Source of the DNA: Betaproteobacteria bacterium
GTDB taxonomy: Bacteria; Pseudomonadota; Gammaproteobacteria; Burkholderiales; Ga0077523
Reading direction: 5' to 3'
Length of the DNA stretch: 59,244 nt
NCBI GenBank assembly: GCA_025350245.1
Contig: JANXYG010000013.1
Location: 1 to 59,244 of the forward strand
A model generated the notes under the pieces. It did no database searches, was not told the origin of the DNA, and saw nothing but the letters and a program-made list of their open reading frames with translations. Positions 8,132-18,023 of the stretch are shown piece after piece (within the stretch, counting starts at the first letter, position 1; each line of letters opens with the position of its first letter). The translations under genes were made by a program, and so were the position numbers.

Positions 8132-8399
8132 CCGGATTGACCTTCCTGCCGGCCCGCGCGTTGTCTCTGGCCTTCGCAGTGACGCGGTTCAACAGGTCCG
8201 ACGTGTAGGGAACCCCCTCCCCTCGGTCGAGTTGATCGTCACCGACCTTCAACGCCCGCTGCAACGCGGCGACTTTCTCGTCTTCGTCGTGCATACGGCG
8301 TATCGCATCACGCACGACTTCCGATGCGTTGCTGTAGAAGCCCGTCTCCACTTTGCTCTGGACGAACTTTTCCATTTCTGGGGAAAGATTGATGTGCAC
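8118..8399 (-). CDS. parD: ParD-type antitoxin
   Basis: 93 aa. The N-terminal ribbon-helix-helix has the ParD pattern (MHINLSPEMEKFVQSKVETG, then FYSNASEVVRDAIRRMHDED). The C-terminal tail RGEGVPYTSDLLNRVTAKAR is the flexible toxin-binding part. It is expected to neutralise ParE and to repress its own promoter; a perfect inverted repeat just upstream of the start (8424-8447) is a good candidate operator. Confidence 0.93.
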   Translation of the reverse strand: MHINLSPEMEKFVQSKVETGFYSNASEVVRDAIRRMHDEDEKVAALQRALKVGDDQLDRGEGVPYTSDLLNRVTAKARDNARAGRKVNPDVVP

Positions 8400-8423
8400 G
8401 GCAGCGCTCCGAGATTCTGGATG

Positions 8424-8447
8424 TACATGATGCTAACACGTCATGTA
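8424..8447. promoter_or_regulatory. Inverted repeat, candidate ParD operator
   Basis: TACATGA (8424-8430) and TCATGTA (8441-8447) are perfect 7-bp inverted arms separated by 10 bases, centred about 35 bp upstream of the parD start. Arms of this kind in this place suit binding by a ribbon-helix-helix autorepressor. A further half-site-like TTACATGG lies at 8456-8463. Confidence 0.6.
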
Positions 8448-8497
8448 TGCAAGGCTTACATGGTCCTCCTGGGCGTCCAATCGGCTGCACCAGCGGT

Positions 8498-8520: not shown

Positions 8521-8583
8521 GAGACCGCGGTCCAGGGAGCGGATCGTTAGCGCGTCGATGGAGATGGTGGTAGCGTGATTCTC

Positions 8584-8802
8584 ATGAGTCATGCTGACGT
8601 CGCCGAGATCCTGAAACTCTCCGTCGAGGAGCGGATGCGCCTCGTGGAGCTGATCTGGGAAAGCCTCGCTGCAAACCCCTCTGCTCGGCCGTTGAGCGAT
8701 GCTCAACGGGCGGTGCTCGACGAGCGGGTTGCGGAGCACGATCGCGACCCTGACGATGTCGTTACCCGAGAAGCGGTCCTTGCCGAAGCGCGCCGAGGCT
8801 GA
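8584..8802 (+). CDS. Addiction-module antitoxin, TIGR02574-like
   Basis: 72 aa from ATG 8584; a GTG at 8575 would add three residues. The sequence ILKLSVEERMRLVELIWESL, then LSDAQRAVLDERVAEHDRDP, matches the small 'addiction module component' family that pairs with a RelE/ParE-like toxin. Its stop overlaps the ATG of the toxin reading frame (TGATG), as in intact modules. The toxin behind it is broken, so this antitoxin is probably an orphan. Confidence 0.8.
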   Translation: MSHADVAEILKLSVEERMRLVELIWESLAANPSARPLSDAQRAVLDERVAEHDRDPDDVVTREAVLAEARRG

Positions 8803-12161: not shown

Positions 12162-12860
12162 GGGTTCTTCGGACTTTTCAGTGGGTAGTTGTTAGGCTGG
12201 GTGGGGTATTTCTTACGGAGATCCGGCGATGGACAGCATCGATCTTTACCGGCAACTGTTGGGCTTGACCACACCGTGGACGGTGCAGCGCGTGGAGATG
12301 GACATTCCGAAACTGCATGTGGATGTTCACTTGGAGCACGCCCCCGGGGCACGGTTTGCGTGTCCGGAATGCGGGGGCGAGTTCGGCGTCTACGATCATG
12401 CTGCCGAACGCCGTTGGCGGCATCTGGACAGCTGCCACTTCCAGACCGTGTTGCATGCGCGCGCGCCGCGGGTGCGCTGTCCCGAGCACGGCGGTCGGCA
12501 GGCCAAGGTGCCGTGGGCCGAGCCCAGCGGGCGGTTCACCCACATGTTCGAGGCACTGGCCATCGACGTACTGCTGGCCACCGATGTGTCGAAGGCGGCG
12601 ATCTTGCTGGGCATCACCTGGGACGAGGCGTGGCACATCATGGAGCGCGCGGTGATTCGCGGCCGCAGCAGCAAGCCCCAAACACTGCCCGAACACATCG
12701 GCATCGACGAGAAGGCGATCTCCAAGGGACATCGCTACATGACCTTGGTGTACGACCTGGAAGAAGCCACGGTCCAGTACATCGGCCAGGATCGCAAGCA
12801 GACCAGCCTGGAGCCGTACTTCGAGGCCTTCCCGCCCGAAGCCCTGCAAGGCGTGCAGGC
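12162..12860 (+). mobile_element. ISL3-family insertion sequence, left portion
   Basis: The element begins with GGGTTCTTCGGACTTTT (from 12162), which fits ISL3 terminal inverted repeats, followed about 50 bp later by the transposase start. It is cut at 12860/12861 by the four-gene transposon. The right end is not found in the window. Confidence 0.75.
12229..12860 (+). pseudogene. ISL3-family transposase, N-terminal fragment
   Basis: About 210 residues remain of roughly 400. The N-terminal zinc-binding pattern is present (CPECGGEFGVYDH, then RVRCPEHGGRQAKVPW). Next come the helix-turn-helix region (VSKAAILLGITWDEAWHIME) and the first catalytic Asp segment (HIGIDEKAISKGHRYM). Homology stops at GVQA, exactly where the inverted repeat of the next element begins; the remaining DDE residues are gone. 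Confidence 0.9.
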
Positions 12861-13060
12861 TGAGTGTGATCACCGAAATCGATGGACCGATGATCGACTT
12901 GGGTGATGGACTGTGGCGCCATCGCAGAGCGTGAACATCGGCGGGGTCTGGGCAAACGGCGACATCGCGATCCAGACCGGCGAGGCCTGTCGAGAACACG
13001 AACCAAAGCGCCGGCAGTGTTGAAGCTGCCGGCGTTGTGCATGGAACGGTGGGGAGGGGT

Positions 13061-13276
13061 TCAGAACGGCGGATCGTCGATGCACGACGGCGGCGTGCGG
13101 CTGACCACGTTGTGTTCTGACCGGTGCTCGTAGTAGCGATGGATCTGATCGCCGTAGCGGGCCTGGAACAAGTCCAGGAAGTGCGCGATGAAGTCGTGGA
13201 TCTGGACCACGGCGTGGTCGCTGAGCGCAGGCATCGGGATGTCGGTGCTGGCGTTATCGTGTGGGTCTGTGGACAT
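13061..13276 (-). CDS. Small accessory protein of the four-gene transposon
   Basis: 71 aa from ATG 13276. The core (LSDHAVVQIHDFIAHFLDLF, then QARYGDQIHRYYEHR) is an amphipathic helical pair. I recall similar small ORFs next to ExeA-type ATPases in elements of this kind. It starts 11 bp after the ATPase stop. Function unknown. Confidence 0.65.
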   Translation of the reverse strand: MSTDPHDNASTDIPMPALSDHAVVQIHDFIAHFLDLFQARYGDQIHRYYEHRSEHNVVSRTPPSCIDDPPF

Positions 13277-13287
13277 GGCGATACCGT

Positions 13288-14133
13288 TCAGCGGCGCGCG
13301 GCTGTTCGACGTGGTGTCGGCGCCTCGGGCTGGGCGAAGACCTCGAGGTAGAGCTTCTCGTCGAGTTGGGGCAGTTCGCGCTGGGTCGCCGCGGCCAGCA
13401 GTTCGGCGGCCATGGTGGTGAGGATGCGGTAGTTGCCGGCGGCGTGATCGCACAGCGTGTGACGCAGCGCTGTGGTCATCAGGGCGGCATTGCCGGCGCC
13501 GACCAACAGGTGGTTCAGCCCCGCGAGCAGTTCCTCGCGGCTGGCGTGCTCGGTGGCCAAGCGGGTACGGATGCGGCTGCCCAGCGGGATCAGATCCTCG
13601 CGGCGCAGCTTCTCGATCAACCGGGCGTCCCCGGCGAGCACCACGCACAGCAGCGGCTGCGAGTCGAAGCGCGCGCTGGCCATCAGGCGCAGCTCGCACA
13701 GTGCGGCCGGGCTCATCTCCTGTGCCTCGTCGATGAGCAGCAGCGCGCGCCCGCGCGTGGTCTCCAGGTGCGCGAGCCAACGTTCGCGCAAAGCCTTGAA
13801 GCCGCCCCAGCGGTTGTGCGGGCGCAGCGGCACGGCGAACACCTCGCCCAGTTCGCGGTACAGATCGGCCAGGTTGCTCTGCGGGTGGTTGATCACGCCC
13901 ACGGTCACGTCGGCAAGCCGTGCGAGGCGATCGGCGAGCAGGCGCAGGGCCACACTCTTGCCCGTGCCCGGGTCGCCGTGGATCATCGCGAAGCCGCCCT
14001 CGCGGATCTGCGCGTGCTCGATGCGCCAGCAGAAGTTCTCCAGCTTCGGGGGCACATAGATCGCCTCGGTGGGCAACTCCGGAGAGAAGGGGTTCCACTT
14101 CAGCCCGTACAGGGCCAGCAGTTTCTGGTTCAT
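13288..14133 (-). CDS. ExeA/TniB-like AAA ATPase of the transposon
   Basis: 281 aa from ATG 14133, which overlaps the transposase stop by 4 bp (ATGA). The start MNQKLLALYGLKWNPFSPEL is typical of ExeA-like proteins. Walker A is MIHGDPGTGKSVALRLLADR, Walker B is RALLLIDEAQEM, and sensor-like CVVLAGDARL and arginine-finger-like PLGSRIRTRL follow. In Mu (MuB), Tn7 (TnsC) and Tn5053 (TniB) such ATPases choose the target and activate the transposase; the same role is inferred here. The C-terminus (FAQPEAPTPRRTAARR) is basic. Confidence 0.88.
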   Translation of the reverse strand: MNQKLLALYGLKWNPFSPELPTEAIYVPPKLENFCWRIEHAQIREGGFAMIHGDPGTGKSVALRLLADRLARLADVTVGVINHPQSNLADLYRELGEVFAVPLRPHNRWGGFKALRERWLAHLETTRGRALLLIDEAQEMSPAALCELRLMASARFDSQPLLCVVLAGDARLIEKLRREDLIPLGSRIRTRLATEHASREELLAGLNHLLVGAGNAALMTTALRHTLCDHAAGNYRILTTMAAELLAAATQRELPQLDEKLYLEVFAQPEAPTPRRTAARR

Positions 14134-15633
14134 GGAGGGTCTTGATCGGTTGGGGTGGGTGGTGCGGCAGCGGCGGTGGGCTGGGCCAACGCCAGGTACG
14201 CCGGGGGCATGCCGGTGGCAGCGTACTGGGCGAGCAACTCGCGCAGCAGCGGCGCGATGCCCGTGGGCGTCAGTGGCGACAGGTCCTTGCCCGTGGGGTC
14301 CAGGCGTGGGCGCCGACCATCGGCATTGGCGGCCTTGTCCAGCGGCTTGATCGGGCACAGCACGGCACCGGTGCGTGCATCGACCAGATCGACGCGGCTG
14401 AAGTCCCAGCGGGCGTAGCGCACGTGCAGCACGCTCGCGTGGCGCAGCCGCGCGGGGATCTCGAAGCGATTGCCCCCCCAGACTCAACGTACTGTCGGAG
14501 CGGCGCGCGCGGCGCCGCACCTCGATGCGGAAGGCGTCTGTGAGCACGCCTGAGTCGGGGCACGGGCGCGCCACCGACGGCCCGGCCAGGTAGCGCTCCA
14601 GTGGCGTGGTCTTAAGTTCGCTGTGCACCGTGCGGTGGTATTCCTGCTCCGCCCAGGCCTGGGTCGCCTCGTTGAGCAGTTCCAGGGTCAAGGCCTGCTC
14701 GCCCTCGAGCATGGCCATGAGTCGGCCCTCCACGCGACCCCAGAAGGATTCCTGTTTGGCGTTCTGGTACGGGCTGTAGGGCAGCGTTGTCTGGTGCACC
14801 ACACCGAGCGTGGCCAGACCGGTGGTGAACTCCTCGCTGAGCATGGCCGCGCCGTTGTCGGTCATGAGTGCGCGCGGCAGGCCGCGCTTCATGAACGCCT
14901 GGCTCAGCCCATGCACCAGGCTGCGCGCGGTCTCGTCCAGATACCACTGCAGGTGACACACCAGACGCGAGCGGTCGTCGATGACGCCGAGCAACAGCGG
15001 CGAGACCCAGGCGCCGGCGCGGGTGAGCACGCGGCGCGAGGCGTGGTGGAAGTCCAGATGCCACAGGGCGCCGACATGCTCGACTTCGAAGCTGCGCACC
15101 TCCCGTTGCTCCAGACGATCACGGGCCGCAATGCCACCGGCGGTGGCTCGTCTGGGACTGGCTTGGCGATGCATCCCCTGCGCCAGCAGGTAGCGGCGCA
15201 CCGTGGCATATGAGGCCAGCGGCGAGTCGCCAGCCCCGCACGCCACGCGCAGGTTGTCCAGGTGCAACTGCGCGGTCCAGCCCGGATGCTCGCGGTATTG
15301 ACGCGTGAGCGCGACGATGGCCACCGCGCTTAAGCTGTGGAAGCAACCTTGGTCGCCACGTGGACGGTCCTTGAGCGCGGCCACCGGGTCCGCCGCGCGC
15401 CGGGCCGCGTAGTACCAGCGCTCCAGGGTGGAGACGCCGAAGCGTACGTCCAGGCCCGACACCGGGTGGCGCCAGGTCTTGGCCGCCAAGGCGAGCAACT
15501 CCGCCCCCAACTGCCGCGGCGCCGGTGGCGCCGCCAGCAGCGGGCCGATGATCGAGAAGCGCAAGCGCGCCCATCGATCGCGTTCAGGGGGATCGGCGAT
15601 CGTCTTCAATGCACGGCTCCAGGCGCAGGCCAC
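14130..15633 (-). pseudogene. rve-family (DDE) transposase of the four-gene element, frameshifted at a C7 tract
   Basis: GTG start at 15633. Residues about 60-110 look like a helix-turn-helix (FGVSTLERWYYAARR). The integrase core follows, with catalytic candidates in WHLDFHHASR (Asp), ALMTDNGAAMLSEEF (Asp) and YSPYQNAKQESFWGRVE (Glu). At the seven-C run (about 14473-14479) the frame runs on out of register. Losing one base there restores GGNRFEIPARLRHASVLHVR, then YARWDFSRVDLVDARTG, and the stop at 14130 that overlaps the ATPase start. Without the correction the frame reads through into the ATPase gene as a 781-residue fusion. It may be a mutation, a sequencing error or slippage. Confidence 0.85.
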
Positions 15634-15719
15634 ACCGGCGGTGCGGCAGCTCGAGTCGAAGGCTATGCAGCCCGCTCTTGCCCGGCTACGGGCATCCTCT
15701 GCGGGTGCTCACGCAGCCC

Positions 15720-16292
15720 TCACCGAAGTCGCTCGGATCGGTCAATGCGCCTGCCCACCGTCACCGGACACAGCCACACCAGCAGCCGCGTCAACGCCTC
15801 GTGCCTGGGACCGGTGAAGCGCTGGATCAATTCCCCGGGCAACTGTTGCTCGGGCACCGGCGGCATGAACCGCGCGCACGTTGCCCGCCACAAAGCGGTC
15901 TGCGGGAATTGCTCGCGCCACCACTGCCGCCAGCGCGTGAGCGTGCGCCGCGCCACGCCCAGCGCGAGGCCCAACCGCGCGCCGACTGCCGTCGCCTCGG
16001 CGGGCTTGGCCGACACCAGCACCACCGCGAGCCCGAGATAAACACGACGCCCCAGGAAACGCACCGACATCGGGGTCGAACGCTCACGACACACCGAACA
16101 GCAAAAGCTCAGGCGCGACGAATGCTCAGGCCGAATCCGGGCCGGACACCCCCGCGGCTTGCGCGGGTAGTCCGCGCGGTGCAGCGTGCCCCCGCACCGA
16201 CAGCCCTCGGCGCGCTTCTGCGCCGCCAGCTCATGATCGATGCGCAGCAACAGCGCCAGGAAATTCCGGTCGTCCAGCAGGGCATGGCACAC
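15720..16292 (-). CDS. Zinc-ribbon protein of the four-gene transposon
   Basis: 190 aa, GTG start. It begins CHALLDDRNFLALLLRIDHE and has paired cysteines (GCRCGGTLHRADYPRKPRGC, and FCCSVCRERSTP) typical of a zinc ribbon. The rest is a basic, tryptophan-rich helical region (RRTLTRWRQWWREQFPQ). I recall homologues as the first gene of ExeA-type transposons, upstream of the rve gene. It probably binds DNA ends or resembles a transposase zinc domain; its exact role is unknown. Confidence 0.75.
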   Translation of the reverse strand: MCHALLDDRNFLALLLRIDHELAAQKRAEGCRCGGTLHRADYPRKPRGCPARIRPEHSSRLSFCCSVCRERSTPMSVRFLGRRVYLGLAVVLVSAKPAEATAVGARLGLALGVARRTLTRWRQWWREQFPQTALWRATCARFMPPVPEQQLPGELIQRFTGPRHEALTRLLVWLCPVTVGRRIDRSERLR

Positions 16293-16435
16293 TGTGATGG
16301 TCTCTGATCTTGGTCGAAAAGAGACTCTCCCACAGTGGCCGTTTGTTCAAGGTCGCTGAGGGAGATCAGCTACCGTCCATCGCCGATCTCGATCAATTCG
16401 CCGGCCAACACCATCAAGATCGGTGATCGTGCTCA

Positions 16436-16575
16436 GGCGGCAAGGCCAGCGTCAAGCTGCCCAAGTTCAATGCCGTGAACACCGTCCTGGGCAATCTGAA
16501 GACCGCCTTGTCGGGCACCTACCATTCGTTCCGCTTCGAGAAGTACGCCCATCGCTACCTCGCCGAGGTCCAGTA
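16436..16575 (+). pseudogene. IS1595-family transposase, C-terminal piece 1
   Basis: From the right end of the four-gene transposon the frame reads GGKASVKLPKFNAVNTVLGN, then LKTALSGTYHSFRFEKYAHR and YLAEVQY. This is the C-terminal part of an IS1595-type transposase. The frame is interrupted at 16576 by an inserted element with an 8-bp target duplication and resumes at 18046. The N-terminal part is absent. Confidence 0.85.
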
Positions 16576-16685
16576 CCAATACTGTTGCGTTAGGAACTTT
16601 TCAGACCTAACACGGATTCTTGTGCGTCGTTATCTGGCAGGGGATCCACCGAGGGCACCTGCACGAATGTCACGACTTTGGTACC

Positions 16686-18023
16686 TTAACAGGCCGTTGA
16701 AATACCCCCCCCAAGCCCCTCGATCTGAGAGAGCATTGAGGCGGGACACCAATACGGAATCGACGACGATGCGCGGCGCCGACAGCTACAGCGAGAACCT
16801 GTTTTCCACCGTTCGGCTGGAGGAGTTCGTGCCGGCCGATCACCCGCTGCGCAAGATCCGTCTGTGGGTCAATGAAGCGCTGTCGAGAATGGATTCGCGT
16901 TTCTCGGCGATGTACGAAGCCGACATCAAGGGCGGGCGCCCGAGCATCGCCCCCGAGAAGCTCATGCGCGCGATGCTGCTGCAGGTGCTGTACAGCGTGC
17001 GCAGCGAGCGGCAACTGGTGGAGCAGATCAACTACAACCTGCTGTTCCGCTGGTTCGTGGGCCTGTCCATCGACGATACGGTGTGGAACCACTCGGTGTT
17101 CAGCAAGAACCGCGACCGGCTCATCGAGCATGATGCGATCACGCAGCTGTTCAATGCGACCGTCGAGATGGCGCAAGCGCGGGGACTTCTGTCCGGCGAG
17201 CACTTCAGCGTCGACGGCACCCTGATCCAGGCCTGGGCGAGCCACAAGAGCGTGCGGCGCAAGGACGGTTCCGACGATGATCGGCCGCCGGATAACTGGC
17301 ACGGTGAGCCGCGCAGCAACGACACCCACGAATCGACCACCGATCCGGACGCCAGGCTGTACCGCAAGAGCAACGCGGCGCCGGCACTGCTGAGCTTCCT
17401 GGGCCATGCGCTCACCGACAACCGCCATGGCCTGGTGGTCAACGCCTGCGCCACGGAAGCCAACGGCACGGCCGAGCGCGATGCCGCGGCAGCCATGCTC
17501 GGCGATGTTCGCAAGCCGGGCCAGCGCATCACCGTCGGAGGCGACAAGAACTACGACACCAAGGGCTTCGTGAAGACCTGTCGAGACATCGACGTCACCC
17601 CGCATGTTGCCCAGAACATCAACCGCAGCGGCGGCAGCGCCATCGATGCCCGTACCACCCGTCACGCCGGCTACGGCATCAGCCAGATCAAGCGCAAGTG
17701 CATCGAGCAGTGCTTCGGCTGGGGCAAGACCGTGGGGGCGATCAGGCAAGTCATGTATCGCGGACTGGATCGGGTCGATGCGGTATTCACCTTGACCATG
17801 GCTGCCTACAACCTCACGCGAATGCGAAGCCTGTCCGAGGTATGTCCATGAAGCCGACGGCGACGGCGAAACAGGTCGAAACGGGCGAGTCGCAGCGTCG
17901 TACAGCGCACGCGGGCCCCGAATTCGTCGCCGTCGTGTCGACTTCTCTCCCCCGGTGAATCGCATGGCGATCGTCAGATGGTGGCTTCGTCGAATGTCGG
18001 GGCGTTTTTCAACAGCCTGTTAA
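16686..18023 (+). mobile_element. IS1182/IS5-type insertion sequence inside the small element
   Basis: Imperfect terminal repeats are TTAACAGGCCGTTGAAA at 16686 and, inverted, TTAACAGGCTGTTGAAA ending at 18023. The 1.34-kb element holds one transposase gene and about 170 bp of non-coding right end. The outer TTAA overlaps the inverted repeat of the host element. Confidence 0.8.
16769..17851 (+). CDS. DDE transposase (DUF772, IS1182/IS5-like)
   Basis: 360 aa from ATG 16769; the open frame extends upstream but only as IS1595 and MITE sequence. The DUF772 N-terminal domain is clear (IAPEKLMRAMLLQVLYSVRS, then INYNLLFRWFVGLSIDD). The catalytic DDE residues lie in EHFSVDGTLIQAWASH (D), RITVGGDKNYDTKGFV (D) and KRKCIEQCFGWGKTVG (E). 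It appears intact, so it may be the only complete transposase of this region. Confidence 0.93.
   Translation: MRGADSYSENLFSTVRLEEFVPADHPLRKIRLWVNEALSRMDSRFSAMYEADIKGGRPSIAPEKLMRAMLLQVLYSVRSERQLVEQINYNLLFRWFVGLSIDDTVWNHSVFSKNRDRLIEHDAITQLFNATVEMAQARGLLSGEHFSVDGTLIQAWASHKSVRRKDGSDDDRPPDNWHGEPRSNDTHESTTDPDARLYRKSNAAPALLSFLGHALTDNRHGLVVNACATEANGTAERDAAAAMLGDVRKPGQRITVGGDKNYDTKGFVKTCRDIDVTPHVAQNINRSGGSAIDARTTRHAGYGISQIKRKCIEQCFGWGKTVGAIRQVMYRGLDRVDAVFTLTMAAYNLTRMRSLSEVCP

Follow-up and report, generated by a model that had tools for sequence, protein, structure and literature searches.

What kind of transposon occupies positions 12861-16435 of contig JANXYG010000013.1 from a Betaproteobacteria bacterium, and what do the two accessory genes beside its transposase and ATPase contribute? 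The analysed stretch of 59,244 nucleotides (hereafter the window) had been given a preliminary description from its letters alone, in which the element appeared as a four-gene ExeA/TniB-type transposon with two poorly described accessory genes, whose proteins might serve as targeting or end-binding factors. The element is 3,575 bp long, carries every gene on the minus strand and adds a new member to the family of Tn6049, which has been described but not classified. Its smallest gene encodes a 71-amino-acid protein with a tail resembling the C-terminal tip of single-stranded DNA-binding protein (SSB), and homologues in other elements carry motifs like those that bind the sliding clamp. These findings suggest a new reading of the small protein, as an SSB-tip or clamp-type adaptor common to Tn6049-like elements and part of IS21.

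Identity of the element

The element shares with Tn6049 of Cupriavidus metallidurans CH34 a zinc-ribbon 'transposase', an IS481-annotated transposase, an AAA ATPase (gspA, 72% identical between the two) and a small open reading frame (ORF), and in the pMOL30 copy of Tn6049 the four genes stand in the same order. The transposase is 65% identical in C. metallidurans plasmids (tblastn), and Tn6049 is likewise about 3.5 kb long with end blocks that align with those of the window element. Tn6049 has been described as a 3.5-kb element present in 12 copies in CH34, all with the ATPase gene gspA, and as frequently associated with genomic islands (PMC2864759); its ends in pHS87a are imperfect 12-bp repeats flanked by 4-bp direct repeats (PMC4739549), and its transposition module 'could not be categorized' (PMC6210171). 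The window element has the four co-oriented genes of this family (zinc ribbon, rve transposase, AAA_22 ATPase and small helical protein) and its homologous ends with an inner block. The co-orientation had been noted in the preliminary description and stands, except that the transposase of the window copy is frame-shifted. The window element also differs from Tn6049 in that its ends start with TGAG rather than the TGTG of CH34 and its small protein terminates in DDPPF rather than LADNDF. Tn6049 copies have direct repeats of 4 bp (published for pHS87a and also seen in a fetched copy) or 6 bp (the fetched pMOL30 copy), whereas the window copy has no target duplication of 4-8 bp, its flanks having only 3 bp in common; this does not exclude membership of the Tn6049 family.

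The 15-bp ends first proposed proved correct. Twelve of 15 positions match between 12861-12875 (TGAGTGTGATCACCG) and 16421-16435 (reverse complement TGAGCACGATCACCG), and a matrix built exclusively from left ends, 60 in number and including that of the window, placed the right end exactly as proposed (score 27.5; next-best site -2.3). The outer block of the right end (TGAGTGTGATCACCGAAATCGATGG; 12861-12885) lies downstream of the genes and that of the left end (reverse complement TGAGCACGATCACCGATCTTGATGG; 16411-16435) upstream, and each is accompanied by an inner block, at 12892-12909 and 16377-16394, respectively; outer and inner blocks are both among the inverted repeats listed for the window (I4 and I6). 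A scan of genome contigs yielded 125 relatives; 80 of these were retained, and 53 left and 66 right ends were placed among them above the score thresholds. Ends and inner blocks hold across these relatives, as does the different spacing of the inner block at the two ends: of the 49 left ends with an accepted match 45 have it at offset 41, and of the 49 such right ends 48 have it at offset 31, the two spacings differing by roughly one turn of the DNA helix. The outer block has the left-end consensus TGAG(C/T)A(C/T)GGTCAC..ATC.TGATGG, and the consensus of the inner block also finishes in TGATGG.

Target duplications, which the preliminary description had proposed to align, were recovered in part. 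Exact direct repeats of 4-7 bp flank 14 of the 40 loci in which both ends are present together with 8 bp or more of flanking sequence (4 bp in five, 5 bp in one, 6 bp in seven and 7 bp in one), compared with a mean of 0.6 and a maximum of 5 for shuffled flanks; the other 26, the window included, have none. Copies without a duplication could reflect replicative, adjacent rearrangements or misassembled contigs of metagenome-assembled genomes.

The transposase (14130-15633, minus strand) matches the phage protein family phrog_310 (2.4e-36, residues 56-432 of an intact relative, by profile), and its best matches among solved structures are retroviral integrases (1.3e-5) followed by TnsB (3.5e-5). 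Residues D186, D251 and E287 are invariant in the alignment of relatives and fit our reading of them as a putative DD(35)E triad. The 281-amino-acid ATPase (13288-14133, minus strand), corresponding to GspA of Tn6049, belongs to AAA_22, and among solved structures MuB, 'ATP-dependent target DNA activator B', alone matches it at E ≤ 0.001 (7.7e-6). Transposase and ATPase together correspond, as judged from such matches, to a Mu-type core of MuA-like transposase and MuB-like ATPase, and the best phage families for the two are phrog_310 and phrog_296; unlike bacteriophage Mu, the element stands alone at 3.6 kb with two extra genes. Of the Mu/Tn7/Tn5053-like logic that had been proposed, the Mu/Tn7 side is upheld by the phrog_310, TnsB and MuB matches; no Tn7/Tn5053-type selector was found, in that no protein of the element in the window matched TniQ in Pfam or NCBIfam at E ≤ 0.1. 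Neither IS481 nor IS21 accommodates the transposase: protein P0004 scores 120 bits and intact relatives 100 and 129 bits against the curated IS481 cut-off of 224 bits (NCBIfam NF033577), and P0004 reaches 41 bits against the IS21 transposase cut-off of 160 bits. IS21 (istA/istB) similarly combines a DDE transposase with an AAA+ ATPase, but its ATPase is IstB (PF01695), which is not among the 16 Pfam matches listed for the AAA_22 ATPase of the window.

The small protein and its SSB-like tail

The small gene (13061-13276, minus strand) starts 11 bp after the ATPase gene. An AlphaFold2 model built from 55 aligned rows consists of a single confident helix (residues 20-57) with low-confidence ends, the loose tail terminating in IDDPPF. 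The window protein matched nothing in Pfam, PHROGs or NCBIfam at E ≤ 0.1 and has no solved relative (best E 0.54); two of seven relatives gave weak Pfam matches below the cut-offs, and none of those scanned matched PHROGs. Whether the two accessory genes are always present had been raised as a question. Both accompany the element: the zinc-ribbon gene is present in all 72 relatives with enough upstream sequence (a transposase match beginning at position 760 or later), and the small gene was found in 57 of the 65 relatives with a located right end.

In the small protein, P70 and F71 are among the seven columns that are at least 90% conserved, and the linker ahead of the tail is unconserved. Among 64 distinct proteins of the family, near-identical ones counted separately, the last residue is F in 58 and the last two are PF in 52; these 64 omit 16 of the 81 ATPase-bearing relatives, those without a detected small protein, some of which are cut by contig ends. 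By comparison, F ends one of 76 zinc-ribbon proteins, none of 77 transposases and none of 72 ATPases (1/225 overall), and PF ends none of the 225. A terminal F together with an acidic residue at positions -5 to -2 occurs in 56 of the 64 small proteins and in 17 of 1803 background ORFs (200 amino acids or longer), and shuffled tails gave a mean of 2.0 and a maximum of 9. The codons of the tail vary synonymously, with all four Pro codons and both Asp codons in use, indicating that selection acts on the amino-acid sequence and not on a DNA site.

An acidic stretch followed by PF at the extreme C-terminus of a loose tail is also the arrangement of SSB, which in the source genome ends in KFDDLEDDIPF, and the window protein has this kind of tip. 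The residues differ, the small proteins usually ending in DDPPF or DEPF and SSB in DDDIPF, and in place of the DNA-binding domain of SSB there is a single helix. The SSB tip DDDIPF is described as binding DnaG, chi, PriA and ExoI, and in DnaG an Arg apparently holds the carboxylate of the terminal Phe of SSB (PMC5872125).

In some relatives the place of the small gene is differently filled. Mutually alike ORFs of 88 amino acids replace it in two Accumulibacter loci (L041:3841-4107 and L058:8455-8721), that of L041 having no Pfam match, and Cupriavidus gilardii (L096) has tandem small ORFs at 8197-8493 and 8533-8709, of which only the second ends in ADEPF.

Homologues in other elements and clamp-like motifs

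Homologues of the small protein extend beyond the four-gene elements. Its profile matched 11 of 369 genomes of the class and 13 of 299 genomes of the order to which Paraburkholderia xenovorans LB400 belongs. Sister elements with transposase, ATPase and small gene were found at L160, L162 and L164 of Accumulibacter genome G427 and on contig C114 of the source genome, and a zinc-ribbon homologue was undetected in all four, the C114 element being cut by the contig end. At the five IS21 loci checked (L240, L244, L246, L247 and L249) a homologue of the small gene lies directly behind istB; no zinc-ribbon homologue better than E 0.01 was found in the short IS21-type loci searched. Genome G1015 has six copies of an IS21 element of this kind, with ...QLDLFPADLLEPF, and 5-bp duplications were seen by eye at five of them. 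The 30 best-scoring istB loci from 150 genomes, 49 of which had a match, contained no convincing small gene (one weak hit lacked the tail), suggesting that the small gene marks a sub-group of IS21 rather than IS21 generally.

Several of these homologues, some from IS21, contain motifs resembling the sliding-clamp motif (QLDLF, QLELF and QMELF). Clamp-motif variants can also contain P, as in QLSLPL of Hda. Among 39 small proteins from the later samples, a clamp-like motif occurs in 20 (18/1803 background ORFs), the strict form Q[LM]xLF in eight (2/1803) and tip and clamp-like motif together in 13 (1/1803); the search patterns were composed after some examples were known, and the 39 include two probably spurious antisense ORFs (L122:746 and L220:762) and a degenerate fragment from the source genome (L123:1490). 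A clamp-like motif is present in 14 of 74 distinct linkers, compared with a mean of 0.66 and a maximum of 5 in shuffles. With samples pooled and clustered at 60% identity (n = 53), 35 clusters have the tip, 18 a clamp-like motif and 41 either; at 45% identity (n = 16), the numbers are 12, 4 and 12. QLxLF is the reported beta-binding consensus, and beta binding has been reported for transposases of nine insertion sequence (IS) families and for Tn7 (PMC4549789).

Further small-protein homologues stand beside or within other copies. The C114 element of the source genome (G000:C114:132-2458; L018, L126 and L206) is a divergent second type, its transposase about 32% identical, with an ATPase and a small-protein homologue ending in QPWLFPPATHD. 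One of the IS21-type copies of G1015 is accompanied by a second homologue (RQMNLFPGYLLDPF) at L234:11-313. In genome G305, homologues ending in VDDDDLIF and VDDDDLTF (L151:991-1338 and L165:596-862) lie directly upstream of the transposase of another element, placing two different small genes close together.

Proposed role of the small protein

The small protein resembles a tail for docking to the host more than the end-binding factor first considered. We consider it somewhat probable, from these sequence patterns, that the 71-amino-acid protein is an adaptor that docks Tn6049-family transposition to host replication or repair proteins. In such a scheme, the transposase, with DDE residues invariant in relatives, would bind the end blocks and perform strand transfer, and the MuB-like ATPase would mark target DNA and activate the transposase. 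The helix of the small protein would probably pack against the ATPase/transposase assembly, leaving the acidic ...PF tip to occupy the SSB-tip pocket of host PriA, Pol III chi, DnaG, RecO or ExoI; in the sister and IS21 elements, the tail would hold a sliding-clamp motif additionally or instead. Docking could serve to recruit enzymes of restart or gap repair to the product of transposition, or else to direct the transposition machine to DNA that is being replicated. It would bear on how AAA+-dependent transposons pass their gapped or forked products to the host and how they sense replication.

For the wider proposal the chances appear evenly balanced: that an undescribed family of roughly 70-amino-acid adaptors, borne by Tn6049-type and some IS21-type elements and carrying an SSB-tip mimic and/or a clamp motif, couples AAA+/DDE transposition to the replisome or to repair and restart enzymes, and has escaped notice through its small size. 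If true, such adaptors would be a general third subunit of these transposons; the nameless ORF of Tn6049 would gain a role and part of IS21 a third gene. No description of such a small-protein adaptor was found in the open-access literature searched, as far as its accessible text goes. Two recognisable host-hub peptides in so tiny a protein also make the idea testable by point mutation.

Several results weigh against an adaptor role. The small gene was undetected in eight of the 65 relatives (L041, L052, L060, L065, L073, L095, L100 and L101), one of which, L041, nonetheless has a 6-bp target duplication; homologues without the accessory genes, which the preliminary description had named as refuting its own reading, exist in part, as far as the small gene is concerned. 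The tip is missing in eight of the 64 distinct proteins (L040, L053, L061, L089, L094, L096, L097 and L104), in 10 of the 11 G305 copies and in the C114 element of the source genome. The profile used for the later samples contains the tail columns and so favours tips there. A clamp motif (QLxLF or a near variant) is absent from the window protein, and in the first sample a clamp-like motif occurs in only eight of 64 proteins and the strict form in none. Finally, insertions show no strand bias relative to the replication fork, with 11 in the direction of the fork and nine against it in two genomes.

These last counts come from the main contig of G305 (eight with, six against; 14 copies, partial ones included) and from G1015 (three with, three against; dnaA at 2.98 Mb, and skew), with fork directions assigned by hand from GC skew and dnaA position. 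The origin of G305 was placed from skew alone, three further copies, on contigs C4 and C6, are omitted, and four of the 14 copies (3.41-3.53 Mb) lie at the skew turn, giving a range of 6-8 of 14 with the fork when the last two are assigned to the opposite side. Strand-specific targeting by the replisome in the manner of Tn7/TnsE, which would give insertions a common orientation to the fork, was rejected on this 11 to 9 distribution. Together, the lack of orientation bias and the existence of members without a tip make an oriented choice of target less probable than the recruitment of host enzymes for repair or restart, or than plain tethering.

The tail could also serve the element itself. The C-terminal hooks of TnsB bind TnsC, and the acidic PF tail might likewise attach to the ATPase or transposase of the element itself instead of to a host protein. 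This would suit a gene that stands immediately after that of the ATPase in the window and in relatives and accompanies the ATPase in two transposon families. However, the same tip occurs beside two ATPase families, AAA_22/MuB-like and IstB, and fits the consensus of a host hub, the sister proteins carrying a second such consensus, and we regard a hook of this kind as unlikely. It is less likely still that this is an ordinary Tn6049-like transposon in which the tail has an unrelated use or none. The family is indeed known, the small gene is not always detected and some members lack the tip, but the tail far exceeds shuffled tails and background ORFs, and its P and F lie within the seven nearly invariant columns.

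Least probable of these alternatives is that the small protein acts as a TnsE-like target selector, directing insertions to replication forks in a single orientation. Clamp-like motifs and an SSB tip would be in keeping with such a selector, as would the association of Tn6049 with genomic islands (PMC2864759); TnsE is described as a fork-type selector, and the same source states that no target selector has been reported for IS21 (PMC10293859). Against it stand the balanced insertion directions and a model of one helix without a Pfam family. TnsE and the beta-clamp-binding transposases likewise place short host-replisome motifs in transposon proteins, but here the motifs belong to a separate helical protein of roughly 70 amino acids, and no orientation bias was found.

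The zinc-ribbon gene and its leader

The second accessory gene (15720-16292, minus strand, GTG start) encodes a zinc-ribbon protein with helices resembling a helix-turn-helix (HTH). The motif C31xC33...C65xxC68 is invariant in 69 rows, and the structural model shows a ribbon and helices. No match was found in Pfam or NCBIfam at E ≤ 0.1 other than a weak HTH_23 match below the cut-off; a profile search of the PDB returned no relative, only one antibody chain at E 1.8, and Foldseek returned nothing at E ≤ 0.001. VIA-align gave short matches only, mostly to zinc ribbons (Z ≤ 3.4), which does not speak for a novel fold. The targeting or end-binding function suggested earlier gains neither a family assignment nor a TniQ match, and our tentative guess is that the protein may assist transposition by binding DNA, probably at the ends or the target.

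Two adjoining hairpins lie in the leader that separates the left end from the GTG start: A (16326-16365) and B (16300-16325; GTCTC...GAGAC), both on the minus strand. The 3' arm of hairpin B is directly ahead of the GTG start and occupies the expected position of the ribosome site (GAGAC; AGGAGG in L102). The mean folding z-score of the leader is -2.3 over 71 sequences. For the 11 outer pairs, as named by us, 91.9% of cells are paired and 24 are double-changed, compared with 4.7 after shuffling, and the covariation score is 0.123 versus 0.068 shuffled and at most 0.085 when the pairing is slid. Six pairs show two-sided change, but one slid version (+3) also reaches six, and the count of pair types is matched or exceeded in several of the slid versions. 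These controls lean towards structure, because the structure was drawn from the same sequences. RNAalifold recovered only three pairs from a 64-row alignment in which divergent rows are visibly misaligned, and Rfam gave a single match, under its gathering score. The hairpins likely restrain translation of the transposition genes.

State of the window copy and its surroundings

The transposase frame of the window copy is broken within a 7-base homopolymer (a run of C on the plus strand, 14473-14479), separating an N-terminal part (14473-15633) from a C-terminal part (14130-14472). A programmed frameshift was considered and rejected, because relatives hold the transposase in a single open frame (79 of the 79 whose matched parts adjoin); the break is either a real mutation or an assembly error. 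It fuses the N-terminal part of the transposase and the ATPase into one open frame of 781 codons (13288-15633). The flanks are fragments of different elements, an ISL3 transposase on the left (12229-12863), cut off at the end of the element, and an IS1595 transposase fragment on the right (16436-16579), followed by a DUF772/DDE_Tnp_1 transposase at 16769-17848, indicating that the element sits in a nest of IS remains. Given the frameshift and these IS-fragment flanks sharing only 3 bp, the copy is probably damaged and its insertion site not a clean one.

Searched at the DNA level, the 156 contigs of the source genome gave no further complete copy and three partial matches, 80-83% identical (G000 C74:28188-28752, C115:1-76 and C27:2243-2291), of which the C74 piece retains the C-termini of the ATPase and the small protein with broken frames.

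Transposase genes of some relatives are themselves interrupted. Inserts of about 3.7 kb occupy the same transposase codon (after ...LPYSPYQ) in two different hosts (L104:1827-5521 and L105:6888-10584) and contain tandem ORFs that by eye resemble three tyrosine recombinases; another copy (G427:C8:13781-21363) is split by about 6 kb near the same residue. All three fit RIT elements, which were reported in 2012 inside the transposase genes of Tn6049-related transposons, including those of Acidithiobacillus (PMC3414803).

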